From: Lachnospiraceae bacterium
Lineage (GTDB): Bacteria; Bacillota; Clostridia; Lachnospirales; Lachnospiraceae
Assembly (NCBI GenBank): GCA_016287095.1
Contig: JAEEVK010000010.1
Location: 1 to 54,009 of the forward strand
Length of the DNA stretch: 54,009 nt
Direction: 5' to 3'
Shown here: positions 1 to 27,068 of the stretch, piece after piece
Layout: each line of letters starts with the position of its first letter
Position numbering within the stretch: position 1 is the first letter of the stretch
Position numbers and translations under genes: made by a program
Notes under the pieces: model-generated
What the model was told of the DNA's origin: nothing
The model's input: the letters and a program-made list of their open reading frames with translations, nothing else
Database searches by the model: none

Positions 1-72
1 GCTCTCGTAACTCAACGGTAGAGTGGCTGCCTTGTAAGCAGTAGGTTGTGGGTTCAAATCCCTCTGGGAGCT
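1..72 (+). tRNA. tRNA-Thr (TGT)
   Basis: Cloverleaf with a 7-bp acceptor stem, a 7-nt anticodon loop (31-37) carrying TGT at 33-35 and a T-arm containing GGTTCAAATCC. The discriminator is T72 and no CCA end is encoded. First gene of the array visible here; the array may continue upstream of the window. Confidence 0.88.
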
Positions 73-155
73 GTATAAATTTATGAAAGGAATGGCAAAG
101 ATTATGTTGCTACGATTACTATCATTATCGCTTATACAACTTAATACTATTAGAT

Positions 156-230
156 GCACCCGTGATGCAATCGGAAGACATACTATGCCCAAACCATAGT
201 TTTATAAGAGTTCAAATCTCTTCGGGTGTA
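156..230 (+). tRNA. tRNA-Leu (CAA), short variable arm
   Basis: Acceptor stem 156-162/223-229 with discriminator A230. D-arm ATG/CAT stem with a Leu-type D-loop. Anticodon stem 183-187/195-199, loop CCCAAAC with anticodon CAA at 190-192. T-stem 206-210/218-222. Two oddities: the variable region is only about 6 nt (200-205) where bacterial tRNA-Leu normally has a long helical arm, and position 33 is C instead of the near-universal U. No CCA encoded. Confidence 0.75.
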
Positions 231-231
231 C

Positions 232-305
232 ACACCTGTGATGCAACAGGCAGACATATGGCACTTAAAATGCTGTTATTATGGGTTCGAATCCCATCAG
301 GTGTA
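232..305 (+). tRNA. tRNA-Leu (TAA), short variable arm
   Basis: Acceptor stem 232-238/298-304, discriminator A305. Anticodon loop CTTAAAA (264-270) gives anticodon TAA at 266-268 with normal T33. T-stem 281-285/293-297. The variable region is 5 nt (276-280), so this is a class I fold for an amino acid that normally uses class II tRNAs in bacteria. One base separates it from the preceding tRNA. Confidence 0.82.
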
Positions 306-306
306 C

Positions 307-379
307 GCCCTTGTGATGGAATGGAATACATACTGTGCTAAGAACGCAGGTTTTACGGGTTCGACTCCCGTCAAGGGTA
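307..379 (+). tRNA. tRNA-Leu (AAG), short variable arm
   Basis: Acceptor stem 307-313/372-378, discriminator A379. Anticodon stem 333-337/345-349, loop CTAAGAA, anticodon AAG at 340-342. D-arm shares the GATG...ACAT pattern of the two tRNA-Leu before it. Short variable region, no encoded CCA. An A34 anticodon in bacterial Leu would probably need A34-to-inosine editing or superwobbling. Confidence 0.8.
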
Positions 380-383
380 CTAT

Positions 384-458
384 ACCCACTTGATGCAAAC
401 GGAAGACATCTCATATTCAGAGTGTGAGTTTATATCAGTTCAAATCTGATAGTGGGTA
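384..458 (+). tRNA. tRNA-Leu (CAG), short variable arm
   Basis: Acceptor stem 384-390/451-457, discriminator A458. Anticodon loop TTCAGAG (416-422), anticodon CAG at 418-420. D-arm again GATGCAA...GACAT. Short variable region. Fourth consecutive tRNA-Leu of the same reduced architecture; together they read UUG, UUA, CUU-type and CUG codons. Confidence 0.78.
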
Positions 459-502
459 TGAGACCTATGTAACACAAAGTATTATGAAAGGAAGAAGAAA
501 CA

Positions 503-604
503 ATGATAAAGATAAGGAAGATCCAAAGTTCACAGCAGTCAATCAATATCATTTGCTCGCGCAGATGGTTTTATCGTGATGCTTTGGAATATCCTAAACT
601 ATAG
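503..604 (+). CDS. possible 33-aa ORF inside the tRNA array
   Basis: ATG at 503 is preceded by an AAAGGAAG-type ribosome site at 487-494 and gives 33 residues, basic at the N-terminus (MIKIRKIQSS) and ending before a TAG at 602-604. It fills most of the only large gap in the tRNA array. No family is recognised and the length is close to what chance allows, so this may instead be a decayed tRNA or spacer. Confidence 0.22.
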   Translation: MIKIRKIQSSQQSINIICSRRWFYRDALEYPKL

Positions 605-643
605 TCACTGTGTGATACTTATTATGAATGTAGGTTTATCAAA

Positions 644-708
644 AGGACTATCAGGGTATTCCTTATGAGTTGAATATCTTGATAGTCCTCTTTATTGTGT
701 TATTTTTT
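644..708 (+). terminator. long hairpin within the tRNA array, possible terminator
   Basis: Ten-base arms AGGACTATCA (644-653) and TGATAGTCCT (680-689) are perfectly complementary and an inner GGTATTC/GAATATC pairing lengthens the stem. A T-rich stretch follows (690-708). It would separate the first five tRNAs from the next nine, or act as a processing signal. Confidence 0.5.
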
Positions 709-716
709 GTACATTC

Positions 717-807
717 GGCTTCGTAACCCTAACTGGTAAGGGAGCAGTCCTGAAAACTGCCAGTACCCGCTAACAACGGCGTCTCGGTTCAAGTCCGAGC
801 GAAGTCG
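717..807 (+). tRNA. tRNA-Ser (TGA)
   Basis: Acceptor stem 717-723/800-806, discriminator G807, long variable arm as expected for tRNA-Ser. Anticodon loop CCTGAAA gives TGA. Position 33 is C rather than U, the same irregularity as in tRNA-Leu(CAA) of this array. No CCA encoded. Confidence 0.82.
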
Positions 808-811
808 CTGA

Positions 812-883
812 ACTCCTGTAGGCTAATGGAGAGACCACTGGGCTACGAACCTAGAAATGAGCGTTCAATTCGCTTCGGGAGTG
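812..883 (+). tRNA. tRNA-Arg (ACG)
   Basis: Acceptor stem 812-818/876-882 and discriminator G883. Anticodon stem CTGGG/CCTAG with loop CTACGAA gives ACG. The D-stem pairs imperfectly (GGCT against GACC). No CCA encoded. Confidence 0.83.
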
Positions 884-888
884 CTTAT

Positions 889-981
889 GGCAGTATAATC
901 CTAATTGGTAAGGAAGCAGTTTGCTAAACTGTGAGTAACCGGTTAATCCCCGGTGTCAGGGTTCAAGCCCCTGTACTGTCG
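889..981 (+). tRNA. tRNA-Ser (GCT)
   Basis: Acceptor stem 889-895/974-980, discriminator G981. Anticodon loop TTGCTAA gives GCT. Long variable arm with an ACCGG/CCGGT stem, the normal class II architecture, in contrast to the tRNA-Leu genes of the same array. Confidence 0.9.
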
Positions 982-989
982 CTTGTTAT

Positions 990-1062
990 GGCATCGTGGC
1001 TAAACTGGATAAGGCACTGGGTTGCAGCCCCAGGATTGCAGGTTCGAGTCCTGTCGATGTCT
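990..1062 (+). tRNA. tRNA-Cys (GCA)
   Basis: Acceptor stem 990-996/1055-1061. Anticodon stem CTGGG/CCCAG with loop TTGCAGC gives GCA. Discriminator is T1062 (U in RNA), the Cys identity base. No CCA encoded. Confidence 0.9.
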
Positions 1063-1069
1063 TTTCTAT

Positions 1070-1141
1070 AGGTCTTTGGTGCAACGGTCAGCATCTCGGT
1101 CTCCAAAACCGAGGATAAGAGTTCAAATCTCTTGAGACCTG
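1070..1141 (+). tRNA. tRNA-Trp (CCA anticodon)
   Basis: Acceptor stem 1070-1076/1134-1140, discriminator G1141 (Trp identity). Anticodon stem CTCGGT/ACCGAG with loop CTCCAAA gives anticodon CCA. T-arm carries GTTCAAATC. Confidence 0.9.
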
Positions 1142-1145
1142 CTAT

Positions 1146-1216
1146 AGGCAGTTAGTTTAATGGTAGAATATCCGGCTCTGAACCGGAAGACATAGGTTCA
1201 AATCCTATACTGTCTG
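1146..1216 (+). tRNA. tRNA-Gln (CTG)
   Basis: Acceptor stem 1146-1152/1209-1215, discriminator G1216. Anticodon stem TCCGG/CCGGA with loop CTCTGAA gives CTG. T-arm with GGTTCAAATCC. Confidence 0.9.
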
Positions 1217-1249
1217 CTATATCCCAACATTCCTATGGATTGCCTACAT

Positions 1250-1321
1250 ATCCCCATAGTGTAACGGATAGCACAAAAGACTTCTAATCTTTTAATAGGA
1301 GTTCGAATCTCCTTGGGGATA
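1250..1321 (+). tRNA. tRNA-Arg (TCT)
   Basis: Acceptor stem 1250-1256/1314-1320, discriminator A1321. A-rich anticodon stem AAAAGA/TCTTTT with loop CTTCTAA gives TCT. T-arm contains GTTCGAATC. Confidence 0.9.
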
Positions 1322-1328
1322 CTTATAC

Positions 1329-1402
1329 ACAAGCGTATTTCAGTTGGTCAGAAGCTCTGTCTGATAAGCAGAGTGTCGTGGGTTCGACTCCCACCGCTTG
1401 TA
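1329..1402 (+). tRNA. tRNA-Ile (GAT)
   Basis: Acceptor stem 1329-1335/1395-1401, discriminator A1402. Anticodon stem CTCTGT/GCAGAG with loop CTGATAA gives GAT. T-arm GGGTTCGACTCCC. Confidence 0.9.
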
Positions 1403-1404
1403 TA

Positions 1405-1474
1405 GGGCGTTAATACAATGGCTAGTATATTCGACTTTGACTTGAAGTATATCAGTTCGATTCTGGTACGCCCC
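1405..1474 (+). tRNA. tRNA-Gln (TTG)
   Basis: Acceptor stem from 1405 pairs for 6 bp with ACGCCC ending at 1473; the seventh pair is a T-T mismatch. Anticodon stem TTCGA/TTGAA with loop CTTTGAC gives TTG. T-arm ATCAG/CTGGT. Last gene of the array and the least regular of the glutamine tRNAs here. Confidence 0.78.
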
Positions 1475-1584
1475 GTTTGTTGTAATAGTGTAATTAATTA
1501 TAACAGGGGAATCACTATATTTTTATAATGACAAATATCGTTAATGGGAGTATACTATACTTATACAAAAAGTCGGAGGATAGT

Positions 1585-3374: not shown

Positions 3375-5267
3375 ATGATAGTTTATGATGGAATAAAAAC
3401 TGATTTTCTTTCCAGTTGCGAGAAAGATACCATAGCTATTGAGATAGAAGAAAATATTCTTTCCAAGATGGGAAAACATACTCCTAAAGCTGAATTTCGT
3501 TCCTGGGAAAACTCCTTAAATTATATGTATAAAGTCCTGACTGACAAAGGTATTCCCGATGATGCGGGAATAGCTATTGAGTTTAATATTCCTCAGACTT
3601 CAAAAAGGGTTGACTTCATGATTTCGGGATATGATACACATGATGAACCCGGTATGGTGATAGTTGAATTAAAACAATGGGATTCGCTTACACAAGTTCA
3701 GGGAACGGATGCTATTGTTGAAACATATGTCGGATCAGGAAATCACAAGGTAGTTCACCCGTCTTATCAGGCATGGTCCTATGCCCAGTTGATCAGGGAT
3801 TATAATCAGGAGGTTCAGGATAGAAGAATTAAATTGTCACCCTGTGCCTGTCTGCACAATTATATTCGTCACGAGAATGATCCACTTGATGCCGAACAAT
3901 ATAAGGAGTACCTGGATGAAGCTCCGGCATATACTAAAGGACAGGCAGATAAACTGCGGGATTTTATAAAAACATCAATCAATAAAGGCGACAAAAAGGA
4001 AGTTTTATATATAATCGATCATGGAAAGATACGTCCTTCAAAAAGCCTGCAGAATACGATCGGCTCAATGCTTAAAGGCAATAAAGAGTTTGTAATGATC
4101 GATGAACAAAAGGTAGCGTATGAGGAAATCTTAAGGCTATCTATGTTATGTCAGAAAGACATGAAAAAACGAACCATAATAGTAAAAGGTGGTCCGGGTA
4201 CAGGAAAAACAGTAATAGCGGTAAATCTTTTGGCAGAATTAACACTAAGAGATCAGCTTGTACAGTATGTTTCAAAAAACAGTGCACCAAGGCAGGTATA
4301 TCTTAAAAAGTTAAAAGGCCAGATTAAAAAGAGCAGTGTTGATAATATGTTCAAGGGATCCGGAATGTATACGGAATCCGGGTGCAATACCATTCATACA
4401 TTGTTATGTGATGAGGCACACCGTTTAAACGAAAAATCCGGTATGTTTCATAATCAGGGAGAGAACCAGATAAAAGAGATAATACATGCAGCATTTTGCA
4501 GTGTTTTCTTCATTGACGAAAGTCAGAGGGTTACAATGGATGATATCGGTTCTCAGGAAGAGATAGAAAAATGGGCAAAAGCAGAGGGATCGGAGATATA
4601 TTATTTAGAGCTTTCATCCCAGTTTAGGTGTAATGGTTCGGATGGATATCTTGCATGGCTGGATGATGTTTTGGAAATAAGAAAAACAGCTAACTATAAC
4701 CTTGAAGGTATTGATTATGATATCAGGATCTGTGATACTCCTAATGAAATGAGAAATCTTGTAATAGAACATAACAGGGCTTCAAATAATGCTAGAATAT
4801 TGGCAGGATATTGTTGGGAATGGTATAAGCAGGAGCAGAACAATACAGATTATCACGATATTAAAATCGGAGATTTTGAAATGAGCTGGAATTTGGGTAA
4901 CGGCGAACCTTTTGCAGTCAGTGAAACTTCAATAAATGAAGTTGGCTGTATACATACATCTCAAGGACTGGAATTTGATTATGTAGGTGTGATATTAGGA
5001 GATGATATTCGTTTTGAAAATGGTAAAGTCATTACTGATTTTAATAAGCGTGCCAAAACCGATCAATCACTAAAAGGTATAAAGAAGTTATATAATGAAT
5101 CTCCTGAGGAAGCAAATAAACGTGCTGATGAGATAATAAAAAATACATATAGGACTTTGCTGACCAGAGGCATGAAGGGTTGCTATATTTATTGTACGGA
5201 TCCCGGGATGAAAGCATATTTGAAGAAAAGATTGGAGTCAGTAAACGAAACAGGAAACAATAGATAA
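3375..5267 (+). CDS. nuclease-like/helicase protein (DUF2075, Schlafen group 3 helicase domain)
   Basis: A 630-residue cytoplasmic protein. The N-terminal part contains a PD-(D/E)XK-like pattern: Asp near residue 80 (RVDFMIS) and VIVELKQ near residue 97, typical of restriction-type nucleases. The rest is the DUF2075 helicase: Walker A GGPGTGKT near residue 273, Walker B-like CDEAHR near residue 345, then SSQFRCNGSDGYLAWLDD, QGLEFDYVGVILGDD and TLLTRGMKGCY as the later helicase motifs. Pfam groups this domain with the helicase half of group 3 Schlafen proteins. An AAAGGAAA ribosome site precedes ATG 3375. Two WYL-domain genes follow at short distance (20 and 59 bp), so the three look like an operon. 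Nucleic-acid cleavage or remodelling in conflict or RNA repair is inferred; the substrate is unknown. Confidence 0.9.
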   Translation: MIVYDGIKTDFLSSCEKDTIAIEIEENILSKMGKHTPKAEFRSWENSLNYMYKVLTDKGIPDDAGIAIEFNIPQTSKRVDFMISGYDTHDEPGMVIVELKQWDSLTQVQGTDAIVETYVGSGNHKVVHPSYQAWSYAQLIRDYNQEVQDRRIKLSPCACLHNYIRHENDPLDAEQYKEYLDEAPAYTKGQADKLRDFIKTSINKGDKKEVLYIIDHGKIRPSKSLQNTIGSMLKGNKEFVMIDEQKVAYEEILRLSMLCQKDMKKRTIIVKGGPGTGKTVIAVNLLAELTLRDQLVQYVSKNSAPRQVYLKKLKGQIKKSSVDNMFKGSGMYTESGCNTIHTLLCDEAHRLNEKSGMFHNQGENQIKEIIHAAFCSVFFIDESQRVTMDDIGSQEEIEKWAKAEGSEIYYLELSSQFRCNGSDGYLAWLDDVLEIRKTANYNLEGIDYDIRICDTPNEMRNLVIEHNRASNNARILAGYCWEWYKQEQNNTDYHDIKIGDFEMSWNLGNGEPFAVSETSINEVGCIHTSQGLEFDYVGVILGDDIRFENGKVITDFNKRAKTDQSLKGIKKLYNESPEEANKRADEIIKNTYRTLLTRGMKGCYIYCTDPGMKAYLKKRLESVNETGNNR

Positions 5268-5287: not shown

Positions 5288-6529
5288 ATGGCACAGTACA
5301 GCGAATCAGTTAAAAACTTTGAACGTGTACGGGACTATATGCGTGAGTTTTACGTGTATGGTTTTAAAAGCCGTGAGGATTATACGCAGAAAAGTGCCCG
5401 TTCCTACGATGATGAGAGGCGCAGGCTGGAGAGCTGGCTGGGGGATTATATGTCTTTTAAGCAGACATCGTCAGGGAAAAATGTGTTTATATCCATAGAC
5501 AGCCGTACCTCTCAGCACAATCCACTGTACAGGGCTTGGAAAGCAAAGAGTTTTACAGATGGGGATATTACGCTGCATTTTATGCTGATGGATATACTTC
5601 CTTCGGGAAATCCCACCGATCCAACCGGGATATCCATAAAGGATATAATGGCCAAAGTTGATGACTATCTGACAGAGACCGGGTCCGATAAGACCTTTGA
5701 CGAGTCCACTATCCGTAAAAAGCTAAAGGAGTATGTGGAAGAGGGCCTGGTTAATGCCCAAAAATCCGGGAAAAATATGCTCTATAGCAGGACTGCTGAT
5801 CATGAGCTCCCAAACAGGGATTTACTGGACTTTTTCTCTGAGACCGCACCCTGTGGCGTGATCGGTTCCTTCTTATTAGATAAGGGGGAGCAGACGAAGA
5901 GTCTCTTTACCTTTAAGCACCACTATATAACAAGTGCGCTGGACAGCGAGATACTCTGCGAGCTTTTTTTAGCCATGAGTGAAAAAAGGATGGTTACTCT
6001 GACTGCAGTTGGCAGGAAAAAAGATAAAATAAAGGAACATCACGCAGTACCGCTAAAGATACTGGAAAGTGTGCAAAACGGCAGGCAGTATCTGATGGCT
6101 TTTGTACCTTCGATGAACAGGATAGTTTCCTATAGGACGGACTATATCATAGATGTTAAACCGGACGAGGTTTGCCCTGATTTTGATATTTTAAGAGAAA
6201 AGCTCGCAGGTATGAGACAGCATATCTGGGGAGTCAGTACTGAGGGGCATTCCGGAGAACGGATGGAGCATGTGGATTTTACCGTGCATTACGGAGACGA
6301 TGAGCAGTTTATCCACACAAGACTCGAGCGTGAAAAACGTTGTGGGACAGTAGAAAGGATAGACGGTAATACCAGCAGGTTTAGTGCTGATGTTTACGAC
6401 TGCGGGGAGCTGGTACCATGGATTCGCACTTTCATTTGCAGGATAGAGGAGATACATTTTTCGGACAAGGAGCTGGAGGACCAGTTTAAAAAGGATATTA
6501 AGGAAATGTATCTGTTATATGATATTTAG
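5288..6529 (+). CDS. WYL-domain regulator (long form)
   Basis: A 413-residue protein with an N-terminal helical/winged-helix region, a second helical segment around residues 115-160 (SIKDIMAKVDDYL, DESTIRKKLKEYVEEG, a wHTH-like stretch), and a WYL-type beta-barrel domain around residues 220-310 (AVPLKILESVQNGRQYLMAF, then RIVSYRTDYI). WYL domains bind nucleic acid or nucleotide ligands and commonly regulate defence and RNA-repair operons. Ribosome site AAAGG lies at about 5275. It is 20 bp after the helicase gene and 59 bp before a second WYL gene, which suggests a co-expressed pair that may form a heteromer. Regulation of the upstream helicase or downstream Ro-like gene is inferred. Confidence 0.88.
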   Translation: MAQYSESVKNFERVRDYMREFYVYGFKSREDYTQKSARSYDDERRRLESWLGDYMSFKQTSSGKNVFISIDSRTSQHNPLYRAWKAKSFTDGDITLHFMLMDILPSGNPTDPTGISIKDIMAKVDDYLTETGSDKTFDESTIRKKLKEYVEEGLVNAQKSGKNMLYSRTADHELPNRDLLDFFSETAPCGVIGSFLLDKGEQTKSLFTFKHHYITSALDSEILCELFLAMSEKRMVTLTAVGRKKDKIKEHHAVPLKILESVQNGRQYLMAFVPSMNRIVSYRTDYIIDVKPDEVCPDFDILREKLAGMRQHIWGVSTEGHSGERMEHVDFTVHYGDDEQFIHTRLEREKRCGTVERIDGNTSRFSADVYDCGELVPWIRTFICRIEEIHFSDKELEDQFKKDIKEMYLLYDI

Positions 6530-6588: not shown

Positions 6589-7560
6589 ATGATTTTCAGC
6601 GAGCTGTACAGTGCTTATTACAATGCAGTGGCTGCCATACTTAAGGAAGCCGCGGAAAATAAAATAGATAGCGGCCGGATCAGGGATATCATAGAAAAAT
6701 ATGCCTTCGGTGAAAGCGTGCTGAACATTGAGCCTGCTTTAAAGGAAGGCAGATGGTCGTTGTTAAAGCCGGATGGGACTTCTGTATTGGAAAAGAAGCC
6801 TACCATGCCCTTGACAAAAGTGGAAAAACAATGGCTAAAGGCGATATCCATGGATCCCAGGGTTTCATTATTTTTCCTTGAGGGGACCTGTTCAGGAAGT
6901 AATCCAAATACAGATACCTGTCAGATCAACATGGGGTTTGAGGATGACATATCACCCCTCTTCACCCCCGCCGATTACGAGCTTTTTGACAGATACCTCG
7001 ATGGGGATGACTATACTGATGAGAACTATCGCAGCAACTTCCGTTTGATACTTGATGCCATCAAAAATCAGTATCCGCTAAGCATTCATATGGAAAACCG
7101 TACCGGAAAGAGAGTGAGGCAGGCGGTTTTACCGGACCATCTGGAGTATTCCGAAAAGGATGATAAGTTCCGTCTGATAGGAGCCTGGAAAAAGTCGAGA
7201 GTTATCATTAACCTCGGGCGCATATCCGACTGCAGGAGATATAAAGGACCTGAAGAGCCGCTAAATGAGACCAAAGAAAACGGGCTAAAGAAAGCGACTT
7301 CACGAAAAGTGGTATTTGAGCTTGATGACAGGCGAAACGCCTTGGAGCGTGTGCTGCTTCATTTCGCTCACTTTGAAAAACAGGCAGAGCATATTGATGA
7401 GAGGAAATATAAGGTAACGGTCATCTATGACAGGGATGATGAGACCGAGATGGTGATACGGCTCCTTTCCTTCGGACCTATGGTAAAGGTGATAGCTCCT
7501 GAGAGCTTTGTGGATTTAATAAAGAAAAGATTAGTTGATCAGAAAAGCTGTGGACTTTAA
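6589..7560 (+). CDS. WYL-domain protein (second of pair)
   Basis: A 323-residue protein. The central part (about residues 140-215) is a WYL-like domain: AIKNQYPLSIHMENRTGK, then FRLIGAWKKSRVIINLGRIS. The C-terminal part (LERVLLHFAHFEKQAEHID, then KYKVTVIYDRDDETEMVIRL, then SFGPMVKVIAPESFV) matches the WYL C-terminal extension. There is no clear helix-turn-helix at the N-terminus, unlike the gene before it, so DNA binding may depend on the partner. An AAAGGAA ribosome site precedes ATG 6589. The gene ends in an intrinsic terminator that overlaps its last codons, closing the operon. Confidence 0.85.
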   Translation: MIFSELYSAYYNAVAAILKEAAENKIDSGRIRDIIEKYAFGESVLNIEPALKEGRWSLLKPDGTSVLEKKPTMPLTKVEKQWLKAISMDPRVSLFFLEGTCSGSNPNTDTCQINMGFEDDISPLFTPADYELFDRYLDGDDYTDENYRSNFRLILDAIKNQYPLSIHMENRTGKRVRQAVLPDHLEYSEKDDKFRLIGAWKKSRVIINLGRISDCRRYKGPEEPLNETKENGLKKATSRKVVFELDDRRNALERVLLHFAHFEKQAEHIDERKYKVTVIYDRDDETEMVIRLLSFGPMVKVIAPESFVDLIKKRLVDQKSCGL

Positions 7561-7576
7561 GTTCGCAGCTTTTTTT
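7543..7576 (+). terminator. intrinsic terminator of the helicase-WYL operon
   Basis: AAAAGCTG (7543-7550) pairs with CAGCTTTT (7566-7573), followed by an unbroken T-run to 7576. It overlaps the stop codon of the second WYL gene. Confidence 0.8.
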
Positions 7577-7578
7577 CC

Positions 7579-7607
7579 GTGATAAATCTTTTTAGGGGCG
7601 TTATAAT
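7579..7607 (+). promoter_or_regulatory. promoter for the tRNA-like RNA / Ro-like gene
   Basis: Perfect -10 TATAAT at 7602-7607 with a 4/6 -35 (GTGATA, 7579-7584) at 17-bp spacing. Predicted start near 7612-7616, immediately before a structured non-coding region. Confidence 0.5.
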
Positions 7608-7613
7608 CACGCA

Positions 7614-7799
7614 TGTAAAGACGCAGACAGCAATTGTTTGGAGAATTATTATGGTCAAATAATGAAAAGACGCGTCTTGTATTTAAGGTAAAGGCACCTA
7701 CAGCAAGTGTTAAACTCTTATTGGTGAATTTGGTTTAGAGATCAGCAATGGCTGATATAATGGGTTCGAATCCCAACACATATGGTGCCTTGTTTTTTC
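7614..7799 (+). ncRNA. Y-RNA-like (YrlA-type) tRNA-mimic RNA
   Basis: Two structured parts. First, stem AAGACGC (7618-7624)/GCGTCTT (7672-7678) enclosing hairpin ATTATT/AATAAT (7645-7650/7658-7663). Second, a tRNA-like module: outer stem AAGGCACC (7691-7698)/GGTGCCTT (7784-7791), inner stem GTGTT (7707-7711)/AACAC (7775-7779), a D-arm-like AAAC/GTTT segment, a shortened anticodon-like hairpin ATCAGC-AATG-GCTGAT (7741-7756), and a canonical T-arm TGGG-TTCGAAT-CCCA (7761-7775). It is not a tRNA: the anticodon position has a 4-nt loop and there is no normal 3' end. A T-run (7793-7798) follows the outer stem, so it could also terminate the short RNA. Bacterial YrlA RNAs mimic tRNAs in this manner and lie beside Ro-protein genes; the next gene here is Ro60-like. 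Secondary structure was drawn by eye. Confidence 0.68.
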
Positions 7800-7818
7800 A
7801 GAAAGTGAGGACTTTGGT

Positions 7819-9309
7819 ATGTTAAACATATTAAAATCAGAAGCAAACAAAACATATACTGAGAATGGTGCAGTGACCCTCTCTACCACAGGAAGCGACT
7901 GCCTGGACTTTTTTGCATGCGCAGGTGCGATAAGACGTGAGAGCGAGGACGAGATCACCGAGAGATTTATGCGTGCTTTCACTGAGGATAAAGATATCGC
8001 TATGAAGCTTCTGTTCTTTTCAAGAGATGTCAGAGGAGGTTTAGGCGAGAGAAAGGTTTTCCGTACCATATTAAAGTGGCTGGCAAATACCGCTCCCGAT
8101 TCTGTAGTTAAAAATCTCGGCATAGTAGCAGAGTACGGTAGGTACGACGATATGCTCGTACTTTTAGGCACACCTTGCGAGGCTGCTATGCTTGAGCTTA
8201 TAAAGAAACAGTTCGAGGCGGATATGGTGGCTTTAGGTATCCGCGACGGTGTTTCGCTGCTTGCAAAGTGGCTTCCTTCTGTAAATACCTCTTCTTCTGA
8301 TGCCAAAAAGGCAGCCAGAAAGATAGCGGGCTATTTAGGTCTCAACATGGCCTCATACAGAAAGGCACTTTCTGCCTTAAGAGCTCATATCAGCATCATA
8401 GAGAACAACCTTAGAGAAAAGGACTACAGCTTTGATTACTCAAGGCAGCCTTCTAAGGCTATGTTTAAATACAAGAAGGCCTTTATCCGCAATGACAGGG
8501 ACAGATATATGTCTTTCCTTGCTGCGGTTAATACAGGTAAAACTGTGCTTAACGCAGAAAACGTATATCCTTACGAGCTGGTTGAGCCTTACCTTAGCTA
8601 TAACGAGTGGTACAAGGGCCGTAACTTTATGAGAAAAATCTCTGATGAGGAGAAGGCTGTCCTTAATGCTACCTGGGCTTCAATGCCTGATTTCGGCTCA
8701 AAAGAGGATGCCCTGGCAGTAGTAGATACTTCAGGCTCCATGTACGGCGGTGGTAAGCCCATCCCTGCAGCAGTGGCGCTTTCTCTGGGCCTTTACTTTG
8801 CAGAGCACAACAGGGGCGCATACAAAAACCATTTCATAGAGTTTTCGGAGCAGCCTCAGCTCATAGAGATAAAGGGTGAGACCTTTGCCGACAGGTTAAG
8901 GTATATCGCATCCTTTACCAGGGTTGCAAACACCAATATCGAAGCAGTATTTGACCTTGTGCTGAATGCTGCTGTAAAGAATCATGTATCTCAGAAAGAT
9001 CTGCCTAAAAAGCTGATCATCATCTCCGATATGGAGTTTGATGAATGTGTAAATAATGCTGAGCTGACCAATTTCCAAAATGCCAAGGTAAAATACGAGG
9101 CAGCTGGATATAAGTTACCTCAGGTAGTATTCTGGAACGTGGCTTCACGCAACAGGCAGCAGCCCGTAACCCGGAACGAGCAGGGCGTGGCCCTAGTATC
9201 AGGCTGCACACCCAGACTTTTCTCCATGATAGCAGGTGGAAACCTTTCACCTTACACATTCATGCTGGAAGTCATAAACAGCAAGAGATATGCCAACATA
9301 GTGGCATAA
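7819..9309 (+). CDS. DUF2828 / Ro60-like protein with TROVE-like and vWA domains
   Basis: A 496-residue protein. The N-terminal two thirds is an alpha-helical repeat region resembling TROVE/HEAT (SRDVRGGLGERKVFRTIL near residues 73-90, then VAEYGRYDDMLVLL near 103-116). The C-terminal third is a von Willebrand A domain with an intact MIDAS-type motif VVDTSGSMY at about residues 301-309 and LIIISDMEFD near residue 400. Ro60 proteins (Rsr in bacteria) are rings of TROVE repeats closed by a vWA domain; they bind Y RNAs and misfolded RNAs and work with exonucleases. The family most like this is DUF2828, for which an RNA role is inferred. A GAGG site lies 6-8 bp upstream of ATG 7819. The candidate Y RNA ends 20 bp before the start codon. 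Confidence 0.85.
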   Translation: MLNILKSEANKTYTENGAVTLSTTGSDCLDFFACAGAIRRESEDEITERFMRAFTEDKDIAMKLLFFSRDVRGGLGERKVFRTILKWLANTAPDSVVKNLGIVAEYGRYDDMLVLLGTPCEAAMLELIKKQFEADMVALGIRDGVSLLAKWLPSVNTSSSDAKKAARKIAGYLGLNMASYRKALSALRAHISIIENNLREKDYSFDYSRQPSKAMFKYKKAFIRNDRDRYMSFLAAVNTGKTVLNAENVYPYELVEPYLSYNEWYKGRNFMRKISDEEKAVLNATWASMPDFGSKEDALAVVDTSGSMYGGGKPIPAAVALSLGLYFAEHNRGAYKNHFIEFSEQPQLIEIKGETFADRLRYIASFTRVANTNIEAVFDLVLNAAVKNHVSQKDLPKKLIIISDMEFDECVNNAELTNFQNAKVKYEAAGYKLPQVVFWNVASRNRQQPVTRNEQGVALVSGCTPRLFSMIAGGNLSPYTFMLEVINSKRYANIVA

Positions 9310-24541: not shown

Positions 24542-25627
24542 ATGGAACTACATGTTATAGAACGTGAAGGAAGGGAGACAGTTGTTCTACTGGATAATGA
24601 GATGAGAATTGTAAAGCCAGTATACGACTATCTGAAATTCCAAAGACAAAAGGATAAAGCTCTCAATACCTTAAAGGCAAGTGGAAGTGATTTACGAACC
24701 TATTGGGAGTTCTTAAACGATAGTGGTTATGAGTATGATAAGGTTACTCCTAAGATGATTGCTGAGTTTATAGACTATCTAAGGGCATCAGATGATGATG
24801 TCATAGCTCTTAACAAAGAAAGTAAGAGAACGAATAAAACAATCAATCGTATTTTGAGTACAATCCATATGTTTTATCAGTTTGAAGCAGATATGCAGGA
24901 AATAGATAATCCTATCCTAATGCATGATGTAAACAGACCTTTTAATGCTTTTAAAGGCATCTTGGAACACGCAAAGTCTGATAATAAAACAAAGCAGTCA
25001 ATCTTCAAGGTAAAGGAAAGTGATTATAAGATAAATCTTGTTACTGATGATGAAATGGAACTGTTTTTAAACCGTTTGGACAAGCGTAGAGACATTCTTT
25101 TATACAAGATGCTCTATCTTACAGGGGCAAGAATACAAGAGGTATTAGACCTTGAAATAGACGCTGTACCACTTCCGGATATGTCACAGTTAGTAGGATG
25201 CTTTCGGCAGATTAAGTCTAAAGGAAAGACCAGGGATTTGTATGTTCCTATGTCACTAATCAAGGAACTTGATGATTTCATCATGGAAGAAAGAAACCTT
25301 ATTGACACAGACCACAGTTACATCTTTGTATCAGAGCAGAAAAGACAGCTTGGCAAACAGCTTACCTATCATGCAGCCTATGACAAGCTTAAAAAGGTAC
25401 AGGAAGAAATCGGTGTGAATTTTAACTTCCACGATTTAAGACATACCTTCTGTTCTAACCTTGTGCAGTCTGGAATGGATGTAAGTGTTGTAAGAATGAT
25501 TATGGGACATGAACATTTATCTACTACTCAGAAGTACACACATCTCTCTAATCCGTACATTGAGGACAGTCTTTCAAGGTATTGGAATCAGAGTACATTG
25601 ATTGGAGGTGGCTCTGATGGCAAGTAG
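24542..25627 (+). CDS. tnpA: tyrosine recombinase, TnpA type
   Basis: A 361-residue tyrosine recombinase, the same length as Tn554 TnpA. An N-terminal SAM-like core-binding domain covers about residues 10-120. The catalytic residues are visible: Arg in TGARIQEVLDL (about 196), HDLRHTF (about 296-302), GHEH and the nucleophile Tyr in QKYTHL (about 332). GGAGG precedes ATG 24542. Its last codons overlap the start of the second recombinase. Confidence 0.92.
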   Translation: MELHVIEREGRETVVLLDNEMRIVKPVYDYLKFQRQKDKALNTLKASGSDLRTYWEFLNDSGYEYDKVTPKMIAEFIDYLRASDDDVIALNKESKRTNKTINRILSTIHMFYQFEADMQEIDNPILMHDVNRPFNAFKGILEHAKSDNKTKQSIFKVKESDYKINLVTDDEMELFLNRLDKRRDILLYKMLYLTGARIQEVLDLEIDAVPLPDMSQLVGCFRQIKSKGKTRDLYVPMSLIKELDDFIMEERNLIDTDHSYIFVSEQKRQLGKQLTYHAAYDKLKKVQEEIGVNFNFHDLRHTFCSNLVQSGMDVSVVRMIMGHEHLSTTQKYTHLSNPYIEDSLSRYWNQSTLIGGGSDGK

Positions 25628-27068
25628 ACCAGATGGTGATGTATGGAACATCGTTGACAATGACAAGGACTCACAGCACTATGGAAGGAACTTTAAGTTT
25701 GATTTTTCCTATATTTCAAGCGAAGAAATCAAGGATGTTGTAAAGGACTATGTTTGGCAGAATTACAGGGTTGGAAATAATAGCTTATCATGGCTGTATG
25801 CTCAGTTGGGAAATTTTAAGACTGTCATGGCATGCTTTGAAGCAAATAGAATAGTTTCGTTGAGAGCAATAACCAATACGGATATAGATATACTTTGTTC
25901 ATATATGAATACAACTTTATCTGAGAGAACTGGCAATAAGTTTTCAACTTCAAAGAAGAGAAATACTTTAAACACTTTTAAAAACATAGTCCGTTGGTGT
26001 CAGCTTCACAGACCTAATGATGTACCTACAACAGAAATCTTTACAGGAAATGAGTATATCGGTGTTAATCGTAAGCTTAAAATCGACTTTATTCCAGATG
26101 ATGTTGTAGCACAGATAAATGAGGCTCTTAAAAAAGAAGAAAATCCATATCTAAAGTATGGCATTATCATCTTACAGTCCACTGGAATGCGTATTGGAGA
26201 CCTCTTAAAACTTCGTATTGACTGCATTAAGCCACATTTGATTAGTGGGTATACAATCGAGTGGATTCAGCACAAAGGACGCAAAGATAAGGCTCCTATG
26301 CCTGTTAGAAGCGAATGTGTAGCTGCGATAGAGAAGCTTATTGAGGTTACAGAACCACTGCGAAATGAAGCTATAGAAAGAGATAAAAATAATCTATTAA
26401 TTTATAGATATTTAAATGGTACTCAGTATGGTAAATACAATGGAAAAGTAGCTACGCCTACATCGGGTGCATTTTCGTATTGGTTTGATACCTTTGTCAA
26501 TAGAAATAACATCAAAGATGCCAATGGCGATTACTACAACCTTACAAGCCATCAGTTCAGACGAACTCTTGGAACAGATATGCTTTCCAAAGGAACTAAT
26601 ATAAATGTTATTCAGCAGGTGTTAGGTCATTCAGATCCATCCGTTACAAAGCGTTTCTATGCAGATGTAAAGGATAAGGAACGAGCAGAAGTATTTAAGA
26701 GTGTAGGTGTTATAGGCAACATCAATCAGATACAAAGTAGTGCTTTTGATAGTGTATCAGAGTTTGAATGGTTCAAGGTTAATAAGGATAAGTGTGTTGC
26801 AGGTTTGTGTGATGGTTATTGTACAAAACCTGTTACAGATGGAAATATCTGTCCGAGACTTCTTAAAAGGCAGAAATGCTATACTTGCAGTCGTTATATC
26901 ACTACACCAGAGTATTTAGAGGCTCATAAACAGCATTTGGCAAACCTTGAAAAACAGCTTGAAGAAGGTGCTATTTATGGCGAGCATTACGCAGAACACT
27001 TTATACCAACCATAGAGGTATTAAAAGTCATCATTGAAAGATTGGAGGGATTGCAAAATGGCAACTAA
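25617..27068 (+). CDS. tnpB: tyrosine recombinase, TnpB type with C-terminal Cys cluster
   Basis: A 483-residue recombinase. Catalytic motifs: TGMRIGDLLKL (Arg), HQFRRT (His-Arg), LGHSDPSVTKRFY with the Tyr nucleophile. The C-terminus has an array of cysteines (CVAGLCDGYC, then CPRLLKRQKCYTC) that could bind zinc, as in TnpB-type proteins. ATG 25617 follows GGAGGTGG inside the tnpA coding end; an upstream TTG is less likely. Shorter than Tn554 TnpB (about 630 aa). Overlaps the third recombinase by 11 bp. Confidence 0.9.
   Translation: MASRPDGDVWNIVDNDKDSQHYGRNFKFDFSYISSEEIKDVVKDYVWQNYRVGNNSLSWLYAQLGNFKTVMACFEANRIVSLRAITNTDIDILCSYMNTTLSERTGNKFSTSKKRNTLNTFKNIVRWCQLHRPNDVPTTEIFTGNEYIGVNRKLKIDFIPDDVVAQINEALKKEENPYLKYGIIILQSTGMRIGDLLKLRIDCIKPHLISGYTIEWIQHKGRKDKAPMPVRSECVAAIEKLIEVTEPLRNEAIERDKNNLLIYRYLNGTQYGKYNGKVATPTSGAFSYWFDTFVNRNNIKDANGDYYNLTSHQFRRTLGTDMLSKGTNINVIQQVLGHSDPSVTKRFYADVKDKERAEVFKSVGVIGNINQIQSSAFDSVSEFEWFKVNKDKCVAGLCDGYCTKPVTDGNICPRLLKRQKCYTCSRYITTPEYLEAHKQHLANLEKQLEEGAIYGEHYAEHFIPTIEVLKVIIERLEGLQNGN

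Follow-up and report, generated by a model that had tools for sequence, protein, structure and literature searches.

YrlA RNAs carry a GNCGAA-type Ro-binding sequence after their stem, and Chen et al. (2014) reportedly found that more than 250 bacteria and phages have Y RNAs close to Ro60, a set that may already cover the phage members of the DUF2828 family considered here. In Salmonella, tRNA fragments induce the rsr-yrlBA-rtcBA operon via RtcR (passages of PMC7790460); a CARF domain is part of RtcR, and genes with CARF domains are often accompanied by WYL genes (passages of PMC4012209). For RYPER, a scaffold role has been predicted (passages of PMC8394870). Within the open-licence literature, as judged by titles, abstracts or passages, no RNA partner of DUF2828 is described; the nearest is a guess in a 2025 phage paper, one passage of which supposes that Y RNAs accompany such a gene and refers to Chen et al. 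2014 for mycobacteriophage Y RNAs (PMC12282133). An earlier sequence-only reading of the locus described here had likewise known of no RNA partner, which is too strong for the wider family in view of that guess and of the annotation of mycobacteriophage DUF2828-family proteins as "Ro-like RNA binding protein".

Our locus lies in a 54,009-nucleotide stretch of a Lachnospiraceae genome (contig JAEEVK010000010.1), hereafter the window, in which positions 7560-7818 sit between a WYL-type regulator gene and a DUF2828/DUF7788 gene (Table 1). This interval holds two modules, A and B, that on their sequence would be bacterial Y RNAs in the wide sense, each having a terminal stem and an effector domain and lying beside a gene whose product has a predicted Ro60 fold. 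Our reading, to which we give a probability of roughly 0.8, is that they are a pair of Y RNAs belonging to the Ro60-fold protein whose gene follows them, working by a mechanism of handle and adapter. That they are Y RNAs of the Ro-like protein at all we hold slightly more firmly, and for a role in tRNA damage we see about even odds.

Table 1. Features of the window locus, and of related loci in which the handle replaces an anticodon loop
Feature	Location	Strand	Basis or remark
WYL-type regulator (a)	5288-6529	+	relatives in 16/25 homologous loci
WYL-type regulator (b)	6589-7560	+	relatives in 14/25 homologous loci
Sigma-70-like promoter, GTGATA-17-TATAAT (putative)	7579-7607	+	consensus match alone, 10/12 positions
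Y-RNA-like module A	7618-7679	+	sequence reading, strict finder, folding z -3.0
Y-RNA-like module B	7691-7792	+	sequence reading, strict finder, folding z
tRNA-like cargo of module B, ordinary (unpermuted) order	7707-7779	+	sequence reading, T-arm count, relatives
U-run, UUUUUU	7793-7798	+	directly 3' of module B
DUF2828/DUF7788 protein, 496 aa, predicted Ro60 fold	7819-9309	+	Pfam, alignment, structure model
tRNA bodies with handle replacing anticodon loop	L094 1485-1980; L068 2078-2183; L067 876-1029		
tRNA bodies with handle replacing anticodon loop	L073 2961-3068; L069 2683-2789	reverse	

The two modules follow a common plan: a stem of 7 to 8 pairs (AAGRYRCN/NGYRYCUU), ACAGCAA left unpaired, an insert that varies and a G at the end. 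Module A runs in the order AAGACGC (7618-7624), AG, ACAGCAA (7627-7633), a hairpin insert, GCGUCUU (7672-7678, forming 7 pairs with the first element) and a closing G at 7679. In module B the arms of the closing stem are AAGGCACC (7691-7698) and GGUGCCUU (7784-7791), which form 8 pairs and enclose a U, ACAGCAA (7700-7706) and a tRNA-like insert, the closing G standing at 7792. The insert comprises an acceptor-like stem GUGU/ACAC, a D-arm-like GG loop, a hairpin AUCAGC-AAUG-GCUGAU with a loop of 4 bases (7741-7756) and a T-arm at 7761-7775 (UGGG, 7761-7764; UUCGAAU, 7765-7771; CCCA, 7772-7775), and this tRNA-like cargo is retained in two close relatives (L010 and L011). The T-arm, the 4-base-loop hairpin and the TATAAT box that the sequence-only reading had noticed are all confirmed in the sequence. 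The 5' stem it described is also present, but as a second complete module (A) and not as the 5' part of one RNA; the acceptor-like pairing it saw exists, but its correct place is 7707-7710/7776-7779, inside the closing stem, and the family signature ACAGCAA had escaped it. TATAAT occupies 7602-7607, with GTGATA 17 bases 5' of it as read from the window letters, and the promoter ends 10 bases before module A. The U-run that follows module B is possibly an RNA 3' end or an attenuation point ahead of the gene; the terminator caller gave no terminator there.

Taken singly, the window sequence makes a weak case. Module A folds the more clearly, with 1 of 200 shuffles as good, and module B modestly (z -1.9; 7 of 200), while the whole 205-base stretch folds no better than shuffles (z -1.1; 28 of 200). 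Neither at the gathering score nor at E up to 5 does Rfam place a Y RNA or tRNA on the modules; the only match of its tRNA model within 7500-7900 is at 7525-7593 (17.7 bits), outside the modules. The search with the YrlA covariance model (RF02553) that the sequence-only reading had suggested as a check was likewise without a match in 7500-7900 at E up to 5, but it did give below-cut-off matches in other DUF2828 loci, described below. Because folding and Rfam are weak for this one sequence, the case rests on comparison.

For the comparison, a strict finder demanded an 8-base stem with at least 7 pairs, the outer three formed and at most one G-U, then one base, RCAGCR and the final G, and was run on one locus per gene, within 1.2 kb upstream. 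The order sample consisted of 392 genomes, of which 41 had a DUF2828 match over the Pfam cut-off, two of them with two genes, giving 43 genes; two genomes with matches below that cut-off (G098 and G412) were omitted, their loci not being included. A strict module lies upstream of 37 of these 43 genes, one of which (L108), with its odd stem and motif, looks like chance, and upstream of all 25 genes of a second set. The modules number 88 in the order sample and 90 in the second set, compared with shuffle means of 2.0 and 1.0, and thus 178 in both sets, 175 of them unique since the sets may share identical or near-identical genes, compared with about 3 in shuffles. Control regions of the order sample and the second set gave 0 and 1 matches on the reverse strand, 4 and 4 inside genes, and 2 and 0 downstream. 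The finder reports up to 8 modules per gene; the same plan, repeated, is seen in the upstream regions of the 25 homologues, and 58 of the 62 module-bearing loci have at least one module whose 3' arm ends in CUUG. The strict finder passed over six of the 43 genes; by eye, and outside the counts, modules with an altered motif stand at three of these (L096, L105 and L106), the handle (stem plus ACAGCAA) takes the form of a closed hairpin at L110 and L095, and the sixth, L111, has the permuted tRNA-like RNA described below. A looser finder tried for counting gave 315 upstream matches over a background of 35 downstream, 50 on the reverse strand and 38.6 in shuffles, and was replaced by the strict one because of this high background and of duplicates of one gene among its 112 loci.

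The motif and the gene also keep company when sought separately. Upstream, ACAGCAA goes with a paired stem in 148 of 160 cases, compared with 0 of 12 inside genes, 5 of 24 elsewhere on the same strand and 1 of 21 on the reverse strand. A pattern search of the order sample with a 17-base signature was positive in 66 of the 392 genomes: 33 of the 43 with DUF2828, as compared to 33 of the 349 without a DUF2828 match (p 5e-21). Most signature hits in the genomes without DUF2828 are chance, because among 30 loci a stem begins at the signature in 1 of 15 from such genomes but in 13 of 15 from genomes with DUF2828. DUF2828 is rare across the phylum, where a sample of 299 genomes yielded it in 4, including that of the window; two of the other three, G575 and G601 of one genus, have modules, and G516 has none within the stretch examined. 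TROVE genes occur in 6 of the 299 genomes of the phylum; three of the six loci (L132, L134 and L135) have below-cut-off YrlA matches, and the six together yield one strict module match, which lies in L132 and on the other strand from the gene. By eye, a permuted tRNA-like RNA without ACAGCAA was noticed at L111 1855-1976 (genome G195), upstream of a divergent homologue (30% identity), perhaps with a different handle.

Pairing was assessed separately, because the strict finder demands it and its pair counts are thus biased. With modules anchored by AAG-N6-ACAGC and the next CTTG alone (5 anchors without CTTG were dropped), pairs 4-7 are all formed in 115 of 143 modules, whereas redealing the 3' arms 1000 times gave a mean of 49 and a maximum of 63, relatedness being uncorrected in these figures. 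Pair 4 is G-C in 63 and A-U in 53, and pair 6 is A-U in 67 and G-C in 48. The T-stem changes on both sides too, in 11 unpermuted cargoes.

The product of the downstream gene matches PF11443 (DUF2828; 1.6e-34) and PF25043 (DUF7788; 7.6e-45), the only Pfam families at E ≤ 0.001; TROVE (PF05731) has no match in the protein and none in its own genome, which is 85% complete. The structure model, built from 20 aligned relatives, is of moderate confidence (pLDDT 78, pTM 0.66), and at E ≤ 0.001 it has 13 PDB matches, every one of them a Ro60, TROVE or Rsr structure, among them a phage Ro60 (9l5y) and Deinococcus Rsr, although at TMq 0.39-0.51 and with a high rmsd (8-12). The predicted fold is that of Ro60, a helical-repeat ring with a vWA domain, and this, taken with the want of a TROVE sequence match, makes it a Ro60-like protein and not a TROVE member. 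Residues D303, S305, S307, T372 and D404, which we take to be the MIDAS metal site, are invariant in the 20 relatives. PHROGs labels the phage family "RNA-binding protein".

In the neighbourhood of DUF2828 relatives, 25 homologous loci searched with flanks of up to 3 kb (some shorter) include 15 with the RNA ligase RtcB, 21 with WYL regulators and 3 with RlaP. RtcB is absent from the window, the RtcB of its own genome being on another contig, and RlaP has no match in that genome. We infer that WYL proteins take the place of RtcR at DUF2828 loci. Upstream of the WYL pair, a Schlafen group 3 helicase-type protein (PF09848) is encoded at window 3375-5267; Schlafen-type relatives were found in none of the 25 loci, where 3 kb flanks barely reach the corresponding place. 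Further away, about 6 kb upstream of the Ro-like gene, 14 tRNA genes are clustered at window 1-1476.

What the modules carry is diverse. Inserts of strict modules range from 12 to 192 bases. A T-arm of the quality seen in the window is present in 38 of the 175 unique modules, compared with 0.035 expected in shuffled inserts, and at least one T-arm module occurs at 36 of the 62 module-bearing loci; 137 inserts have none, and since 26 of the 62 loci are without any T-arm module, tRNA mimicry is not a general rule. tRNA-like cargo takes three topologies. The first is the unpermuted order of a tRNA read outside-in from the Y stem, as in the window, L010 and L011, and with tRNA scores over the cut-off at other loci (e.g., L012, at 43.2 bits, L015, L021, L077 and L109); 17 Rfam tRNA matches lie inside strict modules, and one more in plasmid locus L117. 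In the second topology the order is permuted as in YrlA: the YrlA model matches in or over modules at 34-45 bits (cut-off 69) in L030, L081, L090, L116 and L125 (two matches), so that permuted cargo exists at these loci. In the third, a complete tRNA body has the handle built into its anticodon arm as a closed hairpin (L067, L068, L069, L073 and, twice, L094), and the hairpin, with a GACA loop in several, is followed by ACAGCAA. The finder for this last form also demanded tRNA ends and gave 7 matches over all loci, which become 6 because L047 is an ordinary tRNA; these come from five genomes of four genera, and five shuffled rounds gave 0. The tRNA model scores three anticodon-handle RNAs of L094 at 53, 45.5 and 45.4 bits.

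tRNA matches between modules, not inside them, were seen at L012 2789-2861, L032 2606-2676 and L019 2433-2505. A pattern for closed-hairpin handles, TTGACAAA-N4-7-ACAGCAA, was rejected as mostly chance, both in genomes (35 of 385, few with DUF2828) and in viral contigs (at least 120 stretches).

The proposal of the sequence-only reading, in which a tRNA mimic of Y-RNA type partners a DUF2828 protein resembling Ro60, has held up. Two of the outcomes that it had named as refuting, a lack of covariation and a lack of T-arms in homologous regions, did not materialise: the same modules stand upstream of other DUF2828 genes, the stems covary when pairing is not required, T-arms recur in homologous upstream regions, the protein has a predicted Ro60 fold, and the cargo of other loci attracts the below-cut-off YrlA matches. 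Beyond this we suggest, tentatively and at rather less than an even chance, that the Ro handle is an RNA domain that can be moved from one RNA to another and has been joined to tRNAs in three ways: around a tRNA of ordinary order, as in the window, around a permuted tRNA, as in the YrlA-like cargo, or in place of the anticodon loop, which would yield "Y-tRNAs" whose ends are those of a normal tRNA. The inserts carried by the Ro-like protein, tRNA mimics among them, would then form a library for recruiting or blocking enzymes that cut tRNA and enzymes that repair it, at a locus that often has RtcB and WYL genes. A tRNA whose anticodon arm holds a Ro handle would stand as a natural intermediate form linking tRNA to YrlA.

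The family extends to phages and plasmids, with homologues in 682 of 50,697 phage records. When 14 phage stretches were searched with the strict finder over 2 kb upstream and 1.5 kb downstream, 11 had matches and 9 had clear sets, upstream of the gene in CKA15, FADO, L119, F370 and EfV12 and downstream of it in Silverleaf, Crossroads, EC6 and Staphylococcus phage S-CoN_Ph5 (as a group L116, L121, L126 and L129). Several phages have other stem sequences, and phiN3 has possible modules; the single match in L127 looks like chance, and the strict finder gave no module in phage stretches L120, L122 and L124 or in plasmid L118. Plasmid L117 has five modules, then RtcB, then the DUF2828 gene, and in phage contig L119 an RtcB gene likewise lies between the modules and the DUF2828 gene. 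Several tRNA genes are present in 5 of the 14 stretches (L114, L115, L121, L123 and L125), and the homologue adjoins arrays of 15 tRNA genes in FADO and 18 in EC6. Inside the FADO array (Bacillus phage FADO, L115, 5105-5225) there is, by eye, a module with a permuted tRNA insert. A protein query of IMG/VR found no relative, probably because query patterns from close relatives are too narrow, since named phages have many relatives. Upstream of the homologue in Listeria phage CKA15, a passage of PMC12282133 describes three regions, seemingly non-coding, whose RNA is very abundant, and such regions are taken there for possible Y RNAs. One of them, at positions 26,236-26,727 in that paper and among the most abundant unexplained RNAs of the infection, matches Rfam ROOL (RF03087) at L114 (OR088597.1) 4458-5009 with 90.1 bits, below the cut-off (99.1, E 7e-17). 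The three ACAGCAA modules of CKA15 lie elsewhere, at L114 5651-5915, positions 25,289-25,553 of the record. This region is not one of the modules, so its abundance is no proof that modules are transcribed.

On the handle-and-adapter reading, one transcript, starting a few bases 5' of module A, would carry both modules and might be processed to separate RNAs. Each module would present the same handle to the protein (the stem of 7 to 8 pairs, the unpaired ACAGCAA and the final G), and the inserts would differ, a plain hairpin in module A and a tRNA mimic in module B. The ring protein would grip the handle, leaving the insert as adapter or bait for partners that could be tRNA-handling or RNA-degrading enzymes. 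The function of such an RNP would probably be to survey or repair structured RNAs that have been cut, tRNAs above all, a role that has been proposed for Rsr, YrlA and RtcB in Salmonella.

Alternatively, one could envision the tRNA mimics as decoys that titrate anticodon nucleases or tRNA-cutting toxins, with the protein merely stabilising them. This is the main rival, and it is compatible with the same anatomy: the anticodon loop is shortened or replaced in window module B and in the tRNAs with handles, homologues are present in the many phage records noted above, some beside several tRNA genes, and the idea has been raised for YrlA (a passage of PMC7790460). The same passage reports that YrlA fragments were undetected in Salmonella, so that YrlA is not a nuclease substrate; an inhibitor fits this observation as well as an unrelated RNA does. 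Most inserts have no T-arm, which speaks against decoys, and we consider them rather unlikely. Modules that lie between a promoter and a start codon, with UUUUUU ending module B, might also form a cis-regulatory leader, an attenuator in the 5' UTR that would control the gene in response to damaged or uncharged tRNA and would resemble Y RNA in form only. A leader is difficult to reconcile with as many as 8 modules per gene, with modules downstream of the gene in four phages, with an RtcB gene separating modules from the DUF2828 gene in L117 and L119, or with handles placed within RNAs that have a full tRNA body, and we regard it as improbable.

A series of repeated small RNAs immediately ahead of a single gene, from which a U-run separates them, also recalls a type III toxin-antitoxin-like pair, in which the repeated RNA would neutralise a toxic protein. 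Type III antitoxin repeats are alike, however, whereas the inserts described here vary from module to module, and the protein has a predicted Ro60 fold, not that of a ToxN-kind endoribonuclease, and no match in PADLOC; such a pair is very improbable. That the modules are functionless scars of tRNA genes or mobile elements, as the tRNA cluster of the window and the several homologues beside tRNA genes could suggest, is scarcely tenable given the stem covariation, the near-invariant motif, the association with the gene in many families of one order and the presence in phages.

We return to the reading of A and B as Y RNAs with a common handle. As a working hypothesis, DUF2828, whose members occur in gut bacteria and phages and have had no function assigned to them, would represent a second branch of Ro60 RNPs with an RNA handle of its own. 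The RtcB, RlaP and WYL neighbours point to tRNA damage, and with many inserts per locus, what a Y RNA brings to Ro60 becomes testable insert by insert.

Compared with known systems, the locus is most like YrlA and Rsr (e.g., Salmonella rsr-yrlBA-rtcBA), in which a terminal stem and a tRNA-like domain are likewise encoded beside a Ro60-fold protein, often, though not in the window, with RtcB. It differs in what follows the stem: the YrlA model has a GCGAAUG-like sequence there, whereas DUF2828 modules have ACAGCAA, and in the window modules ACAGCAA stands in place of any GNCGAA-type or GCGAAUG sequence. The order of the cargo differs as well, being permuted in the YrlA model (T-arm, acceptor hairpin, D-arm), whereas window module B has a D-like arm, the hairpin and then the T-arm. 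Unlike YrlA/Rsr, DUF2828 loci have arrays of up to 8 modules per gene, mostly with non-tRNA inserts, and where the YrlA/Rsr operon uses RtcR they have WYL regulators nearby, presumably as a replacement. Deinococcus radiodurans Rsr/Y RNA/PNPase (RYPER) resembles the locus in having a Ro60-fold protein with a small RNA gene nearby, but its protein is of the TROVE family and its RNA is different. The phage "Ro-like RNA binding protein" (PHROG 850) belongs to the same protein family, with modules in 9 of the 14 stretches and possible ones in phiN3, although stem sequences are different in several and the modules lie downstream in four. We read the DUF2828 system as a variant form of Rsr/YrlA that differs from the known one in its docking motif, in its arrays of modules and in having tRNA mimics of three topologies.
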